This document shows, piece after piece, positions 10,618 through 34,387 of a stretch of DNA of 34,585 bases (its first letter is position 1; each line of letters opens with the position of its first letter). A program made the translations under genes and the position numbers. Under the pieces are notes generated by a model that was given only the letters and a program-made list of their open reading frames with translations, made no database searches and was not told the origin of the DNA. Origin of the DNA: Spirogloea muscicola (lineage: Eukaryota; Streptophyta; Zygnematophyceae; Spirogloeales; Spirogloeaceae); contig WELB01000135.1 in NCBI GenBank assembly GCA_009602725.1, positions 3,738 to 38,322 of the forward strand, given 5' to 3'.

Positions 10618-13394
<2,777 letters not shown>

Positions 13395-24852: not shown

Positions 24853-27800
24853 ATGGCGGACCCCGACCCCGGCGCCGTGCAGGCGCTCCTCCACTCCTGT
24901 CGCCACTCCGGCAACCAGGTCAGCCGCCGCCCGCGCCCCGGCCTCCCCTCCGGGCGGCGCTGCTCGTCCCGTCGACGCCGTGACGAGCCGCCGGCTAAGC
25001 GCGCGCATGCCAGGCGTATGAGGAGTTCAAGCGCGTCCTCGGGAAGCTCCTCGACGCGGACACTCGTGTGGCTGCACGCCGGTGCGTCGTGGCGCCCTGA
25101 GCTCACCCGCAATTGCCGTCGACGGACTGCCGCACGCCCCACGCTACTCATCAGCAGCTCTGGAGCAGCTTGCCCGCAGCCAGCGTTCCTCTCCGTCATG
25201 ACTCGGTCAATTGCCGCCATCGGCTATGACTCGAGGGGGCGATCCGCTGGGTACAGATTTTTGGCAGCCGTGGAGAAGGCTGCGAATGCGGAGGTGCCGG
25301 AGGAGCGCCAGATGGCGGAGCTCCACTTCCGAATCCACCAACTCTCGCTCAGCGAAGTTCCAGGCAAGCGGCACTGATGCGAGGCGCTTATCGCTGCCGG
25401 AAGCTGAGCAGAAGTTCATGAGACGCCTTTGTCTTGCTTGTATCATGGACCATTAACCAGTACGGAGGTATTCGATGCTGCGCAGAGGTGGAGGCCATGG
25501 AGGAGGGAGGGCCGTGCAACGAGAAGAGGCAGTCGCTCACGCTCCTAGAGCTTCCCTCCATCTTCGTTCCCGAGGCGTGGAGCTTCACCTTCTTCGAGGG
25601 TATCTCGCGGCACCCGGACACGGGGTTCCGTGGGCGGGATGTTGTTGAGCTTGGCTGCGGGAATGGATGGGTCACTCTTGCCATGGCCGCAAGGTATTGC
25701 CCTCGCAAGGTAAGTGACCGCTACCAATTGCTGTCTTTCACCAAGCGGCTCGTCTCCGCACTCGTGTGCCTATCTCTTGATTGTGTCAGTAGTGTCGGTG
25801 AATGATTGCTTTCCTCGCTCTCTCGCCTCCCTCCGTCCTCCCTCCACCTTTCCTTCCGTCCATGATCCTTTGGCCCCCACTCCTGTGCCATTCATAGCCT
25901 TTCATTCACTCTACGCTTCAGTGTGCATTTCTCATATTCCACTCTTTGTCTGTGCCTCTTCTTTGCTAATGAAATGCTCCCTTGGTTAGACAGGTCTATG
26001 GGCTGGACATCAACCCCCGAGCCATCAAAGTGGCGTGGATCAACCTCTACCTCAACGGATTGTCGCCTGACGGGAACCCTGTTGTCGATGCTGAAGGCAT
26101 GACAATGCTGGACCGGGTCGAGTTCCACGAGTCTGACCTGCTGGCTCATTGCCGTGACCACCACATTTCGCTTGACCGTGTGGTCGGCTGCATACCCCAG
26201 GTCAAGTCTCCTTCATTCAGAGAGTGGAATGCAGTTTAGACCACTGGCTCTGGAAACGCTCCTCGTGACACTTGCTGACACTTGCAGCCGGCTGCCTAAT
26301 GGCAGGTCCTGAGCCCGGACCCTGAGGCGATGCTCAACATGGTGTCCGAGACGATGACTGACGAGTTCCTGCACTCGCTAAGCAACTACTGTGGCGCACA
26401 GGTGCACATCCCCTCTTCTCACACTCAAACCATGACCGTGGTCCCTGATGCCTAGACTCTAGGCCTTTACTCCTGAATAAGTGTCACCTTGGCATTCTCA
26501 CCTGCCTCAAGGCCACACTGACAACTCTGCCGACCAGTCGCCTGGAGCATCATGACAGGGCTTTGTGGAGGACCAGTTTGGGCTGGGTCTGATCGCCCGT
26601 GCAGTAGAGGAGGCCATCCAAGTCGTGCGGCCGTCTGGTTGCATCATCCTGAACATGGGTGGACGACCAGGCATGGCTGTGTGCGAACGCCTCTTCCTCC
26701 GCCGCGGCTTCAACATCCGCAAGCTCTGGCAGACCCGCGTGAACCAGGTCTCACCCACCTCCTCTGGCGCCCCATCACATCCTAATGCGTGCATCTCCTC
26801 TCAGAGGGAGAGTTAGCTCAATCTTCAGCAGCTTCTTGGAACTAAGGCAAACCTGGCGGCCTCTAAGGAGGCAAATCTTCTTTGACAACTTCATCACACG
26901 CTTGGTCCAGGCTGCAGACACAGACATCCTTGCTCTTGTGGAGATTGAGCGCAGCAGCAGGCACCGCTTTGAGTTCTACATGGGGCCTGTGAGCGAGGAG
27001 CCGGTCTCTGCAAAAACTGCGTATGCATATGCACGTGCTGGGGGTTCTATTGGCCACGGCCTGACCGTCTTTGAGTGCCGACTGCGGCATCCCACTCATG
27101 TGAGTGGTTGCCAGCTGAGCACGTCGCATATTGCACTACTTTGTTAATGATATCCTCCAGCTCTGATTACGACTACCGCCAGCTTGCATACTGCTGCCCT
27201 TGCTTTGAGCTGAGGCCCTGCCTCTCTTGGTAACCTTGAGCTGCATTTGCGTTATCTGCTCACAGACATGAATGTCCAGAGTTGGTCTGCTCAGCTTGCT
27301 TTGCCCATGCTTGCTGAAGTACTTGATCTCTTCTGACTTACTAATTGAATACATCCACAAATGTGCAAAGTGGATTGCATGCCTGGCTGGAGAGGACGGC
27401 ACGTAACTGGCTGTTGCATACTTGTGTTGCGTACTTGTGTGACAACGTTGTTCTGATTCCCTGGAAGTCAATCTCTACCCCTTTTGCAGGTGAAGCAGAT
27501 CTTTCAATTCTTGAAACAGGATGGTTATAGTGAAACAAGGGGAGCTCTGGATCTCGCATTCCATGATGATGGGGTGGCAGACGAGAAGACCGCCTTTCTG
27601 GCACATCTCGCTTCCACCCTTCCCTCATCCCTGCCATCTTCCTCCCTCCACTTCCGCTCCCAGTTTGCTGCATTTATGCGACTGTATTTTCGTGTTCCTT
27701 ACACTGCTCAGGTACTTGCCAAACCCTGGATGCATCTAACAGCAGGCAGAGATTGCCAACTTGCCAACTCAAGGTTGATAAGTAGACCATGACTATGAAG

Positions 27801-30800
27801 CATCCTGCTTGTGCAACTTCATGTCGCAGATCTCATATCTGGACCAGCACAACTGGTAAGACTGATGAGAGCATACTGAGAATGATTTGCTGTGCAAGCC
27901 TGTGTCCAGAATCTCGTCGTGCTTCCTTCCAGAGGAGCCGCGCTGGAGAATATTGTGCGACTTTATGCTCCTCGTCTGGCACTCGTGGATGCCACCCTGG
28001 CTCGCCTTCTACCAAGGCATCTCCTACAGGTTCTGTTGGTATTCAAAAAGCATATGCATGCGTGTGCTATTCAGACAAGCAGGGCTGAAGAGTTCTGCAG
28101 GCAGCTGGTTCTATGTGCATCAAGTCAGAAAGAAGCTCTGCTCCTAAAAAGGGACATTGTGGTTCTGCATGCGCAGGATGATGTTGCATTTTCGCCGAAG
28201 GGGAAAAATGGGGTGTCTACCAACTTGGTCAGGGGGCATGTAAGGTCCACCATCAGTTGGATATGAGCATTTAGGATTTGATTCCCTTGCATGTAGACCA
28301 GTTTCCTAAGATTGATGCTACTGCCTTGGCTTTAGCCAGCTGCATATGTTCTAGCCTGTAAGTGCTTGATTCTGGATCCCAACTGACTTTGTTGCTTATT
28401 AAATTGATAGGGTTCTTTGCAAAAAGATTACCGGCCATAGTGTACTTATGAGCAAGTAAGTGGACTGCAATGGGGCTGTGCTCTGACCGTTGTCTGCTGA
28501 CCCATGGTGCGACAGGAGGAGCATCATGGCATGACCTTGCTGGAGGCGCCGCGAAGCGCTGACCTCCTTCTGCAGCTAACTCGTGCCCTGAGGCCCCAGG
28601 TTATGGTGCTCCAGTTGGCAGACTTTGAGATGCGGAGCACAATTGCGTTTGAGCAGCTCCTCCAGGTCTCCAAGGAGGTGGGAGCAAGAATATTTGTGGA
28701 CATCAGTGACCACTTGGAGCTTTCCTCACTCCCTTCCACCAATGGCGTCCTTCAGTATCTTGCTGAGCACCCTCTCCCACCGCATGCGGCCATCATCTGC
28801 GGGCTTGTGAAGAACCAGGTGCCCTGCTGCCTCTCTGCTGTGACAAGCAGTAGTCCTAGCGGAGGCCAGCAAATACGTCAAGGATACCAGACACTCTGTA
28901 TAGTGGATGACCATCTCTCCAGCCTTCAGACCCCTCAAAGCTAACTTGGTCAGAGCTTTAGTATAGAAGTGTTGACATACACTATTCAAGACAGGCAAGC
29001 ACTGTGCATGAACATCTAGGTGAAGATTCTGTACTGGCTCTTTGATGAGACACTGTGGTTGGCAGGTGTACTCGGACCTGGAGGTCTGCCTCTTGATATC
29101 AGAGAATGCAAGCTTATTGAGAGGGATTGCAAACATGACCGAGCTTACGTTCTCCGTGACTCCTGCAATGAGCCAGTTGTATTACGGCACCCTTTTGCAT
29201 GAGCTCCTCTCATTTCAGCTGCGTGAGCGCCACCTACTCAATCAGGTGATGATGGCATGTCCTACTGGACTTAGCATTTCAGTCCCACTGCCTTACTTAC
29301 CTCCATATGCTGAATTGGCTGTGCAATCCTAACACTCATATCCTTGACCATCTGCAGCGGACGATAAGAGAGGAGGACGATCTTACATCGTCCCAGTTTG
29401 TGGCTATCACGAGGTGTGCAGCGGAAGCTTGCCAATTTCCGTCCGTCTCGAGTGCCGAGGGTCCCTCCCCATTGCTGGGGGCGGAAGAAGCTGATCACCA
29501 ATGGGTCAGGATGGACGAGGCGGAGTGTCACCTGGCGGCTCCCCGAGCTGCAACACGCCTTGTATTTGAGGGCTTTGCCCGGCAGCACGTGTCTGAGGCC
29601 GAGATGGATCCTCGCCCAGAGATCCTTCAGGTAAGGCTCTCCTTCATGGGCCCAGAGTAAGGGGCTATGGTCTAGATGCTGAGGTCTGGCTGAGGATCTG
29701 GCAGTGCGTATTTTTCGTACTTGCCTGTATTACTTGGTGTTGTGCTGACTCTTCCTTACTTGACTTATCTGCCAGCTGCTGTCTGAGAGGCTGGGCCTCA
29801 ATCCCAGCAATGCAAAGGAGGTCGTACTGGGACAAGACAGCGGCCCGCTCTTTTACCGGCTCATGGCAGCATGTCACCAGGAAGGTGCCACAGCCCTCCT
29901 CCCTTCTGGGTTTCCCGGGAGCTGGCTGGCGACCGCCGCTCTCTGCCAAGTCAGCTGGCAGGTGATCGCCACACTCGAGGAGTCGGGCTACAAGCTGCTC
30001 CCCAGCCAGCTAGAGACAGCGCTGGTAGCTGTGCCCAGAGCTTGGGTGGTTCTGACTGCGCCAATCGTCAACCCCACGGGTGCTGTGTACACGAGCGAGG
30101 AGCTTGTGGCTCTGCTTGGAGTCTGCAGGCGGCATGGCGCCAGAGTTATTATCGACACGTCATATATGGGGCTACAGTGGGATGACTTCAATTCTTGCTG
30201 CGACTTGGAAGGGGCAGTTGCCAGCATGCTGCCCAAGGCTATGTATGCAGTTGCCATCCTTGGCAGTGTATCAAAACTGGTAGGAAGATGGGTCACTGTG
30301 TCCTACTTCCATGTCCCTATAGCACGCTCTGCTGGATGCCTCTCTGTTTCCCCTCTGTTGCAAGGTAGAAAATTCTGCAAGGCAAGCAGGTTCTACTGAG
30401 GACCCTCCATGCGTCTCCTGACGATTCACTTACTGAAGACTCGGCACCTTGTCTGTGACTTGGTCCTGCAGTTCTCGGCTGGTGGCCTCCGTCTTGGATT
30501 TGCTGTGCTGCGTGACAACGTCTTCATTGATGCCCTCAAGGAGAGGGAAAGCAGCAGGTCTAGGACCAGGAGTAGTTGTTGCTTACTCTTCTTGTTCTTA
30601 CTCGCCTTGACATTGCAAATACCATGAAATGGATATATTCTTGTAGAATTCGTTCCGTCAGTAGGTGCAGACGAATCGAGGTGAAACAGCAACGACATGA
30701 ACGCATTTGCCGTTCTCTAATGACAGTATTGATCATGCTGGTGCAGCTTGTGCAAGCCGCATGGGACCCTTAGATATGCAGCAAAGAGGATGATGGCTTT

Positions 30801-31499
30801 GCAGGACCAGTACTCTGACAGCATGCAAAGTGAGCTCAAATCCCAACTCCAGGAGCTCAAGAGGAGGGCGGATCTCCTTTGTCAGGTAAGACACGCTTCC
30901 AACCAAAAAATAGGCCACAAGGCCACTATCAATCCTGGCATGTCCAGGTATCTTACCGTGCCCTTTCATCCATGCTGGCCTCCAATGTTGGCTGGTGCGT
31001 TTAGCCATTATGCAGGGTAGGTTGTAGATGGTGAGGCCAAAAAGTGCATTGCATGTGTGCAACTTGTTTACCTGAAGTGCGCGTAATCTACTCTCGTGCA
31101 TGAGCGCAGACCTTATGTGAATCTGGATGGGCGCCGCTCAGACCAGCAGGGGGCCTCTTCCTAGTGGCTCGGCCGGTTGCATTTGAAGGCAAGGCCTTCC
31201 GCTGTGCCAAGCACAGTGACGTCAATGGCGGAGCTGCCATGGACCTTGACCAATTGCGAGAAGCTGCCAATGGGAAGGATAAGGTTGAGCAAGCAACGTA
31301 CACCTTGGACAGCAAGAACATCCGTGATGCGATGAGAAAGGCTGTGGGCTTGATAATCAACTGCAGCGACTGGACTGGCATACCAAACCACTGTCGTTTT
31401 GTCTTTTCTGGTACTGAGGATACTTTCACTCAAGGACTGCATCGAATCAGGCAATTCCATGCCATGGTACTTAGGCAAACAGGTCAGGAAGAGACGTAG
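24853..31499 (+). CDS. MMT1: Methionine S-methyltransferase (MMT), 17 exons, with complete PLP-type residue set
   Basis: Makes S-methylmethionine from methionine and SAM in the cytosol; it feeds the SMM cycle and, in some plants, DMSP synthesis. Exons: 24853–24918, 25014–25081, 25257–25363, 25486–25709, 25994–26200, 26306–26401, 26559–26747, 26911–27099, 27490–27711, 27910–28029, 28516–28818, 29066–29245, 29358–29630, 29776–30279, 30472–30557, 30747–30885, 31110–31499. One frame of about 1120 aa, slightly longer than flowering-plant MMT. The N-terminal methyltransferase has ELGCGNGW (135–142), YGLDINPRA and the MMT signature VVGCIPQ. The C-terminal half is an aminotransferase fold that keeps VNPTG (N847), D875, Y878, SVSK (K915), GLRLGF (R923) and CRF (R1087). 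Exon 3 probably uses a GC donor (25364); GT at 25358 or other acceptors are alternatives, and the exon 10–11 junction is less certain because a small exon could be missed. Confidence 0.94.
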
Positions 31500-31787: not shown

Positions 31788-34387
31788 CTACTCAATGAGG
31801 CGCTTATACTTGCAGTACCAAACTACTGCAAGGAAAATACAAACAGCTCCAGTGGCCGATCCAAAGCAGACATAGTAGAAGACGTTGTAGTTGGAGGGCT
31901 TGTCATCAAAGAGGCTAATGTGGATATTCATGCCGAAGATGCCGGTAATAACCACAAACATGGTAATAACGAGTGTGGCGGTAGTGAGTAGCACATTCAT
32001 CTGCAGAAGGTGATTCTGCTTATCGTCCAGCATAATCTCAATGTAGTCCTGCGTGTCATCTACGTACTCGCGGAGCTGCCAACAAGAAGCAATGCACACG
32101 GTGTTTCAGAGCAAACGTAAAAAGATTCCACATACAATGAAGGAACAACAAGGGGTATGGTGGTGTGACTTACAGTGGAGAGCTTATTGAGGGTCCCTTC
32201 TATCTGTACAAAGTAGGCCTCCAAAAGCATCTCCAGCTCCTCCACATCCAGTGATTTTTGACTGGTGCTGTTGCTACTGCTGCTGCTGCTGCTGCTGCCT
32301 TGGCTGCTTTTACTGCCATGAGACCTGTGCGAACCTGGGCTCTCACTCCCTTCCTCAACTGCGCTGACACCTTGGCTGCCTCTCAGGTCCGCCTCCCCGC
32401 GAGGTGGCCTTGGGGGCAGAGCTGCTCGCCTTCCCCCTGAGCCTCTCATTCTGACAAGGTAGTGGACACGGATAAGGGCACACAAATGCACTGCATTATA
32501 TAGAACATGGCACACAACTCCACTGCTTATATGTAAACATAACAGGACTTTACCTTGCTAGGTTTGAGACAGCCCACATATATTACCTTGAACGTAGTTG
32601 ATAAGATGAGGCATCCGCAAAGGAAGACAGAAGGGCTGTTCACCTCATTCGCCGGAGCCTCTGTTGCTGTTCATTCTCGTCATCCATTCCTTCCTGATCA
32701 AGGCCATCTTCGACCCTCCTACCGTCACCAAGGTCCTCGTCACCCGAGTCGTCTATGGCATCATTTCCATCATCCTCCTTGCTAAGGCCAACCTCTGACT
32801 CGGTCAGGCTCGGCCTGGTCTGTAAGGGTGCAGCAGCGGGCCCAAGGGCCGGCGTTGCTTGACCATAGCGCAAGGGAGAGAGGCTGCGGGAAGGTGTCCG
32901 CTCGAGCTCCCGGTGGAGCTTATCTGTCAAATACATCTCGTCCATGTCCTCGTCATCATCAAGGAGTTGCTCAACCTCGTCCCTCACCTGCCATACAAGA
33001 CACTAGCGAAAGCTCAGGATGTTGATCAGAGGTCCCGTGCACAAGAGCTCCACATGAGGTACGTGCACAGTCCTCACCTTCTGAACACGACTTGAAATAG
33101 CCACAAGACGGCTCTTCAGTTGTCGGACTCGCTCAAGATTGAGCGTGCTGATTGTCGACGTGAGTTCGTCAAGAGCAGGGTACGCCTCTTTCTCCAGTGC
33201 TGATGCCTGCACATGCATCCGGCTTCACTGCCCTGTTAACTGAGGCCGTTATCAAGGAGTCAGACCGATGATAAGAACATTGCTATGTGTGGTATATTTT
33301 GGTCCGAGTATAGGCTACATCAAATACCACTGATATTTGATGTAGCAGGTCGTTGTACGTCTCACTTACTGCGAGCAACCTATTACTCGCCCTACTGAGG
33401 ATCTTGTCATCCAAGCAACCACAGTTGAGCAGTCAACGAGGTCCATGCATGCACGGGCATCTGCGTGAGGAGCAGACCTCTGTGTCGAGAAAGGTGCAGG
33501 CAGCCTCCAAGCAGGCCTCCAGGGCGCGGAACTCGAAGGGCAGCGCCATCGGGCCTCCCCTGACGGCCATGCTGACCTTGCCATCATCGTCCACTTCTGA
33601 GGCCGACCAGCCAGAAGCTGCGGCTCCAGGAGGCTGCCTGTTTCCTGCCGTGACTGCTCCTTCTCGTCTGAAGCGCATTCCAGGCTCTGGCGACTTGTCC
33701 AGGACAAGGCTCTTGGGGCTTCCCTCGTTGTCGGACAGGCCGCCGCCACCATCTCCGGCGACCTTGCCCATGCAGCCCACAGAGCTCATTTCAGTAGCCT
33801 GTTGGAACCGAGCCACATGGCAGCAGCAGCAGCAGCAGCAGGCAAGCAAGGTCTTGCAAAGCACTGTTCCCCTCCAAGTGCCCCAGCTGGCACATGGCCG
33901 AGAACCGCCATGCACACAGAGACGAGCTGACGCTCGTGGTGTGAAGGAGGTTCTTGGTGGGGTGTCCACAAGAGGATGCAGGTCAGCGGCATTGATTGGT
34001 GCATCAGTTGCTCAAGTGGGTGGTCGGCGTTCAAGCGCCCGATACGTCGATGCATCGGCGGTCGAGCCATGGGGCGTCACCTGCTCGCCGAGGGCGTTGA
34101 AGTGGGAGGGGAGGCGGCGGCGGAGCTCGTCCACGAGCGCGGCGACGGCGGGGAGCTGCCAGTTGAGCAGCAGCACCTCCTGCGCGGTGATGATGCACTT
34201 GATGTGCTCCAGGTTCACCACGATGGCCTTCTCGCGCCCCAGCACCGTGGACGGGTACGACAGCGTCGGGTCCAGGATGCGCAGGTCGCGCGCCGGGATG
34301 GACACGCGCCGCATGATCGCGTACTTGTCCGCCTCGATTATCTGGAGATGGGTTTTTCTGGGTTTGCGGTTCAGGATTTTGGGTCGT

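Follow-up and report, generated by a model that had tools for sequence, protein, structure and literature searches.

A class I/II aminotransferase-type core with a predicted pyridoxal phosphate site in a methionine S-methyltransferase of the streptophyte Spirogloea muscicola

Does the aminotransferase-type half of plant-type methionine S-methyltransferase (MMT) keep the residues with which it could bind pyridoxal 5'-phosphate (PLP)? The question is raised by an MMT gene of Spirogloea muscicola (Zygnematophyceae), which lies in a stretch of 34,585 nucleotides (assembly GCA_009602725.1, contig WELB01000135.1, positions 3,738 to 38,322; hereafter the window) and which our splice model divides into 18 exons encoding 1141 amino acids. 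MMT has been described as an MmtN-like domain joined to a C-terminal aminotransferase domain and as occurring in plants, some Deltaproteobacteria and Oligoflexia (PMC9135737, accessible text). The term PLP is absent from the main text of that paper, and the literature that we searched, partly in the form of extracts, gave no statement on the PLP residues of MMT and assigned no role to its aminotransferase-type half; we do not claim that such statements are absent from print. A preliminary description of the gene had proposed an apparently intact PLP-enzyme site in the C-terminal domain, kept here and possibly lost in land plants, and a second activity that might be directed at S-methylmethionine (SMM).

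The C-terminal domain matches Pfam Aminotran_1_2 (PF00155) over residues 766-1064 with an E value of 1.9e-29 and 103.4 bits, and in a PDB profile search its SVSK...GLRLGF segment lines up with the SK...GxRxG segment of aminotransferases of known structure. Every active-site residue named by the preliminary description is present: the Asn of VNPTG (N868), the pyridine-nitrogen Asp with its Tyr (D896/Y899), the Schiff-base Lys and the phosphate Arg (K936 and R944), and the C-terminal carboxylate Arg (R1108). The Lys and the first Arg stand, as had been proposed, eight residues apart, which is the spacing of the class I/II motif SxSKx(7)R; they lie on either side of the join of exons 15 and 16. 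Our residue numbers exceed the earlier ones by 21, the length of the 63 bp exon 11 of the present model, which the earlier gene model probably lacks. The methyltransferase domain is MmtN-like, with an intact S-adenosylmethionine (SAM) motif (LGCGNGW) and a match of residues 110-358 to MmtN (PDB 7vvv; E value of 7.7e-9). MmtN is described as having no aminotransferase region, unlike the window protein (PMC9135737, accessible text), whereas plant MMT and the bacterial MMTs of Group III resemble it in that a single chain carries an MmtN-like methyltransferase and, after it, an aminotransferase-type region. We conclude from these comparisons that the C-terminal half is a real class I/II aminotransferase-type core within an otherwise intact MMT.

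The fold was predicted for a bacterial homologue (L004) rather than for the window protein: in the full-length model (ten sequences, predicted local distance difference test score of 79.7, predicted template-modeling score of 0.75), residues 673-1067 match prephenate aminotransferase (PDB 6f77) with a Z score of 38.3 over 373 residues at 2.9 Å. Solved class I/II aminotransferases (6f77, 6f35 and 1gd9) share their fold with the bacterial homologue, and SxSKx(7)R, NPTG, the Asp, the Tyr and the C-terminal Arg with the window protein. They differ in that the window domain is preceded in its chain by a methyltransferase and by another, truncated copy of the fold, and in that the Tyr70-type motif discussed below is absent from its catalytic domain. 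The Pfam score was considered as a measure of PLP competence and was dropped because the Arabidopsis protein scores nearly as high (95.5 bits) with the positions of N868, K936 and R944 changed. The Arabidopsis sequence used throughout is provisional and does not come from a database; it is taken to have Ser for the NPTG Asn, Phe for the Tyr, Leu for the Lys and Lys for the first Arg, in agreement with what the preliminary description stated.

A search of the S. muscicola genome (153 Mb, 471 contigs) located two additional MMT copies, L001 (18 exons) and L002 (17 exons, its exon 1 lying outside the fetched piece), which were fetched and aligned to the window gene. Several genes of this genome occur in threes, and a genome triplication has been described for the species (PMC7994812, accessible text). 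Exon lengths, splice positions and open frames are equal in the copies, with identities to the window of 0.857-0.988 for exons and 0.684-0.953 for introns (these figures exclude the first exon and first intron of L002). The donor of intron 3 (25364) is GC in all three copies, and that of intron 4 (25710) is GT in the window and GC in the two others. The Lys-Arg spacing depends on the junction between L937 and F938 (30279|30472, intron GT...AG), which rests on genomic sequence; another junction, or an assembly error, would break it. We reject this as very improbable, since the same GT...AG places, exon lengths and frames recur in three copies with differing introns and since the joined protein aligns without gaps at residues 930-948 to 21 intronless bacterial rows.

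The three copies also allow selection on the core to be assessed. N868, D896, Y899, K936, R944 and R1108 are identical in all of them, and codons 860-950 show 15 codons with synonymous differences only and no replacement. The ratio of nonsynonymous to synonymous substitution (dN/dS) is 0.019-0.049 over residues 760-960, compared with 0.052-0.084 for the methyltransferase and 0.094-0.118 for the middle part. Both stretches, 760-960 and 860-950, were delimited with the motif positions already known. Strong constraint thus falls on the region of the catalytic core and not on the whole C-terminal domain. Owing to the genuine core, the strong purifying selection on it and the otherwise intact MMT, PLP binding by this protein is likely.

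We then asked whether the core is peculiar to this gene. A single-protein search for bacterial relatives gave no match, and a two-row alignment search of GTDB genomes gave 14 loci, ten of them full-length (L013-L016, which cover part of the methyltransferase only, were not used). MMT matches occur in 13 of 58, one of 396 and seven of 368 genomes of three bacterial phyla, and the resulting set comprises 21 genomes, with the first ten full-length genes included. Full-length rows have about 1050-1160 amino acids. Since some rows are near-duplicates (L006/L022, L008/L011 and L026/L027), the counts below are of genomes and not of independent events. In one genome (G806) the gene is split into two open frames, and in another (G609, L033) the match counted one internal stop and the open frame of 1048 amino acids was used. 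All 21 C-terminal domains have the residues of the window protein at D896, K936, R944 and R1108, and at N868 there is Asn in 20 and Asp in L035. The PLP core therefore looks ancestral and appears to be a general property of these enzymes, not one peculiar to this gene. The Y899 equivalent is Phe in 20 of the 21 bacteria and Leu in L035, and the S933 equivalent is Gly in 20 and Ser in L009. Tyr and Ser are the usual residues of aminotransferases, and at these two positions the window gene, judged against the aminotransferase consensus, is closer than the bacterial genes to ordinary aminotransferases.

In a midpoint-rooted tree of 23 rows, the three S. muscicola copies group with the provisional Arabidopsis row (support 100/99) among the bacterial rows. 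The nearest bacterial row is L004, with weak support (84/77); both L004 and the provisional Arabidopsis row were flagged as long branches. L004 is itself a plant-type MMT in a metagenome-assembled genome of Thermoanaerobaculia and the sole match among the 396 genomes drawn from its phylum. The frames L037 and L038 of G806 are adjacent, with the break between the middle and C-terminal modules, and could represent either a two-frame bacterial MMT or an assembly error.

The region between the methyltransferase and the C-terminal domain proved to be related to the latter. In hhalign the middle-domain profile (23 sequences given, with the provisional Arabidopsis row left out) aligned to the C-terminal profile with an E value of 1.8e-5 and a probability of 78%, the GLVKN Lys falling opposite the catalytic one. 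The position of that GLVKN Lys, K616 in the window protein, varies among bacteria (K 11, R 5, H 3, Y 2; n=21). A bacterial middle-domain model (20 sequences, local distance score of 82.3, template-modeling score of 0.80) matches aminotransferases without their small domain, with Z scores of 16.7-18.8 over 203-242 residues among the 50 matches listed. Against the PDB, the middle-domain profile found ten chains at E values up to 10 (best 0.0041), nine of which are named aminotransferases or transaminases; for each of the nine, the best stretch falls inside profile positions 46-124, in the region of a Y-x-x-x-x-G-x-x-x-L-R motif. In the second of these PDB alignments the Tyr of the motif itself is unmatched. 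The models and profiles indicate that this region is a second, truncated aminotransferase-fold domain and not a plain linker, an assignment that is new here.

In aspartate aminotransferase, Tyr70 of one subunit contacts the phosphate of the PLP bound in the other. All 20 bacterial middle domains compared have the Tyr, Gly and Arg of the middle-domain motif, P-Y-x-x-x-x-G-x-x-x-(L/F)-R, and in three PDB alignments the C-terminal profile showed no Tyr70-type motif at the place where solved aminotransferases have it. Because the bacterial middle domain keeps a motif that the C-terminal domain is without, a single composite site in cis is suggested: in bacteria the degenerate module would probably give the interface residue and the complete module would hold PLP, with one site per chain.

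These observations are best accommodated by a plant-type MMT of three modules with an ancestral PLP core, the C-terminal domain of which handles a sulfur amino acid, either methionine or SMM; we would put the probability of this reading at about one half. The first module, the MmtN-like methyltransferase, would make SMM; the second would be a truncated pseudo-aminotransferase; and the third would be a complete class I/II aminotransferase-type domain retaining the ancestral core. With residue roles as in aspartate aminotransferase, K936 would hold PLP as an internal aldimine, D896 would pair with the pyridine nitrogen, N868 and Y899 with O3', R944 and S933 would contact the phosphate and R1108 would bind the α-carboxylate. 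The C-terminal domain may then act by transamination or decarboxylation on methionine or SMM, which the methyltransferase also sees. In the bacterial enzymes the pseudo-domain probably takes the place of the partner subunit of an aminotransferase dimer by lending its Tyr70-type Tyr, giving a composite site in each chain.

Several results weigh against this proposal. Of the alignment positions that hold the same residue in 19 or more of the 20 bacterial rows, the window protein retains 94/100 in the methyltransferase, 28/32 in the middle domain and 48/56 in the C-terminal domain, compared with 93/100, 27/32 and 36/56 in the provisional Arabidopsis row. In the middle domain the Tyr70-type motif is altered by Y428S and G433S, so that, by sequence alignment, Ser stands at 428 in the window and in both copies, and F627L and R649V are further changes. 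In the C-terminal domain the changes are Y732E, G733A and N735C (GEN), G790D (GNG), Y816P and F819W (AYGYF), F899Y and G933S, and all eight fall in motifs that we assign to the active site. The Group III bacterial enzymes keep both the core and these elements, the window gene keeps the core and changes them, and the provisional Arabidopsis protein lost part of the core itself. The site that had been called intact is thus intact in its core, where every residue is kept, and not in its Tyr70-type, GEN, GNG and AYGYF elements. As a speculation, F899Y and G933S could compensate for the contact to phosphate that was lost. Given 48/56 columns kept, retention of all five core residues (N, D, K, R, R) has a p value of 0.45, and retention of two of five by the provisional Arabidopsis row has a p value of 0.24 given 36/56. 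The dN/dS of the whole C-terminal domain (0.104-0.145) lies above that of the methyltransferase. If the provisional Arabidopsis sequence is right, plants make SMM without the core Lys. Plants are reported to make SMM with MMT (PMC9135737, accessible text). Finally, no recurring sulfur-metabolism gene was found among the bacterial MMT neighbors scanned with Pfam at E 1e-5 (20 proteins from ten loci, seven of the 20 without a family) and NCBIfam (seven proteins from five loci); the families seen, among them GatB, CMP kinase, acetate-CoA ligase and sensor kinases, do not point to SMM or to dimethylsulfoniopropionate (DMSP). Acetate-CoA ligase lies directly downstream of MMT in L006, L010, L025 and L026 only, and these four cluster in the tree.

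It is accordingly a serious, if somewhat less probable, alternative that the C-terminal domain is a regulatory or scaffolding pseudo-enzyme, retained for folding or assembly of the methyltransferase and perhaps with PLP or an amino acid bound to it, yet without catalysis, with core residues that are bound to the fold or on their way out. The altered neighboring positions, the retention of the core at a rate expected from overall conservation and the provisional Arabidopsis MMT, which keeps the domain yet changes three core positions, are all as such a pseudo-enzyme would have them. It accounts less readily for dN/dS being lowest over the core segment, with no replacement in codons 860-950, for the Lys kept in all 21 bacteria, and for Y899 and S933, which are the canonical residues and not the bacterial ones. 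Since the count of core residues is within general conservation, the argument for function draws on the selection seen inside the core and on the pattern in bacteria.

The nature of the reaction admits a further alternative. ACC (1-aminocyclopropane-1-carboxylate) synthase belongs to the same fold group and acts on a sulfonium amino acid, and SMM is a sulfonium, like SAM. A lyase of that kind could eliminate dimethyl sulfide from SMM with PLP, yielding ACC or 2-oxobutyrate and ammonia. ACC synthases are indeed among the solved relatives (best E value of about 6e-17 for the C-terminal profile; Z scores of 33.8-35.0 for the L004 model), but aspartate, prephenate and aromatic aminotransferases score higher in both comparisons and the similarity is one of fold and profile only, which makes a lyase improbable. 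Published work makes an SMM-directed PLP step a reasonable possibility. Among the enzyme classes for DMSP synthesis in higher plants, PMC5557254 (extract) gives SMM transaminase-decarboxylase, a paper on unusual SMM transamination is cited by title in PMC11464771 (extract), and in DsyGD an S-methyltransferase is fused to the enzyme that follows it in a DMSP route (PMC11306096, extract). DsyGD differs in its pathway and substrates, its C-terminal partner being a dimethylsulfonio-2-hydroxybutyrate (DMSHB) decarboxylase. An activity on SMM, as transaminase, decarboxylase or lyase, is plausible; bifunctionality and SMM as the substrate we infer. An SMM cycle is possible, because homocysteine methyltransferases (PF02574) are present as two clear genes on contigs C218 and C92. 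Further PF02574 matches occur piecewise on contigs C39, C8 and C42. In a more far-reaching and rather unlikely scenario, MMT began as a bifunctional enzyme that made SMM and converted it in the same chain through a cis pseudo-dimer, for example as the SMM transaminase/decarboxylase of a DMSP route; bacteria would have kept the full site, this streptophyte would have rewired it, with Ser933 and Tyr899 replacing the Tyr70 contact, and land plants would have lost it. Loss of the core in land plants is suggested by the provisional Arabidopsis sequence. The positions of the gene and of its modules and residues are collected in Table 1.

Table 1. Positions in the window of the MMT gene, its modules and its predicted active-site residues
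Feature	Position	Strand	Evidence
MMT gene	24853-31499	+	Splice model; two further genomic copies, with open frames and exons of equal length
Exons 4-8, Met S-methyltransferase domain (about residues 95-372; LGCGNGW at 136)	25486-27099	+	Methyltransferase families; PDB 7vvv; bacterial-invariant columns
Exons 9-13, residues 383-678, predicted truncated, degenerate fold-type-I module (aminotransferase large domain)	27490-29245	+	Bacterial homologue model; hhalign; PDB profile matches
S428 (Tyr70-type Tyr in bacterial rows)	27625-27627	+	Alignment
Exon 11, 63 bp	28177-28239	+	Splice model
Middle-domain K616 (GLVKNQ), opposite the Schiff-base Lys in the alignment	28810-28812	+	Alignment; hhalign
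Exon 14 (residues 679-769), with which the C-terminal domain starts	29358-29630	+	Splice model; alignment
E-A-E-C at residues 732-735 (bacterial counterpart YGEN)	29517-29528	+	Alignment
Exon 15, with N868, D896, Y899, S933 and K936 of the C-terminal aminotransferase-type domain	29776-30279	+	Splice model; Pfam; alignment
N868	30070-30072	+	Splice model
D896	30154-30156	+	Splice model
Y899	30163-30165	+	Splice model
K936, second-last codon of exon 15	30274-30276	+	Splice model
Exon 16, with R944 (GLRLGF) eight residues past K936	30472-30557	+	Splice model; copies
R944	30490-30492	+	Splice model
Exon 17 of the C-terminal domain	30747-30885	+	Splice model; copies
Exon 18, with R1108 (NHCRF, Arg386-type) and the stop	31110-31499	+	Splice model; alignment
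R1108	31395-31397	+	Splice model

Elsewhere in the window, a convergent neighbor on the reverse strand (31791-34314) looks like a CorA/MRS2-type magnesium transporter, with a PF22099 match at 34015-34314 (E value of 3.3e-8) and a PF01544 match just under the cutoff at 31791-32099. An open stretch on the forward strand (12508-12954) resembles zinc-binding dehydrogenases weakly, scoring under the cutoff of the family, and an Rfam scan of the window gave no match. A search of the genome for PF10604, which we take to be the family of PYR/PYL receptors, gave no match. The genome carries chlorophyll a/b-binding proteins and many GRAS domains; GRAS and PYR/PYL genes have been described for Zygnematophyceae (PMC9667741, extract), a description with which the negative PF10604 result agrees less well.

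A 2018 survey, in its accessible text, records no MMT in algae (PMC6284425), and the streptophyte MMT described here bears on when MMT arose. A catalytic core present in all 21 bacterial relatives and in this streptophyte makes a seemingly inert plant domain directly testable, with the bacterial enzyme as a strong control, the S. muscicola gene as the test case and Arabidopsis, on its provisional sequence, as the likely case of loss. Were SMM the substrate of the C-terminal domain, this domain would provide one of the steps of S-methylmethionine or DMSP metabolism.

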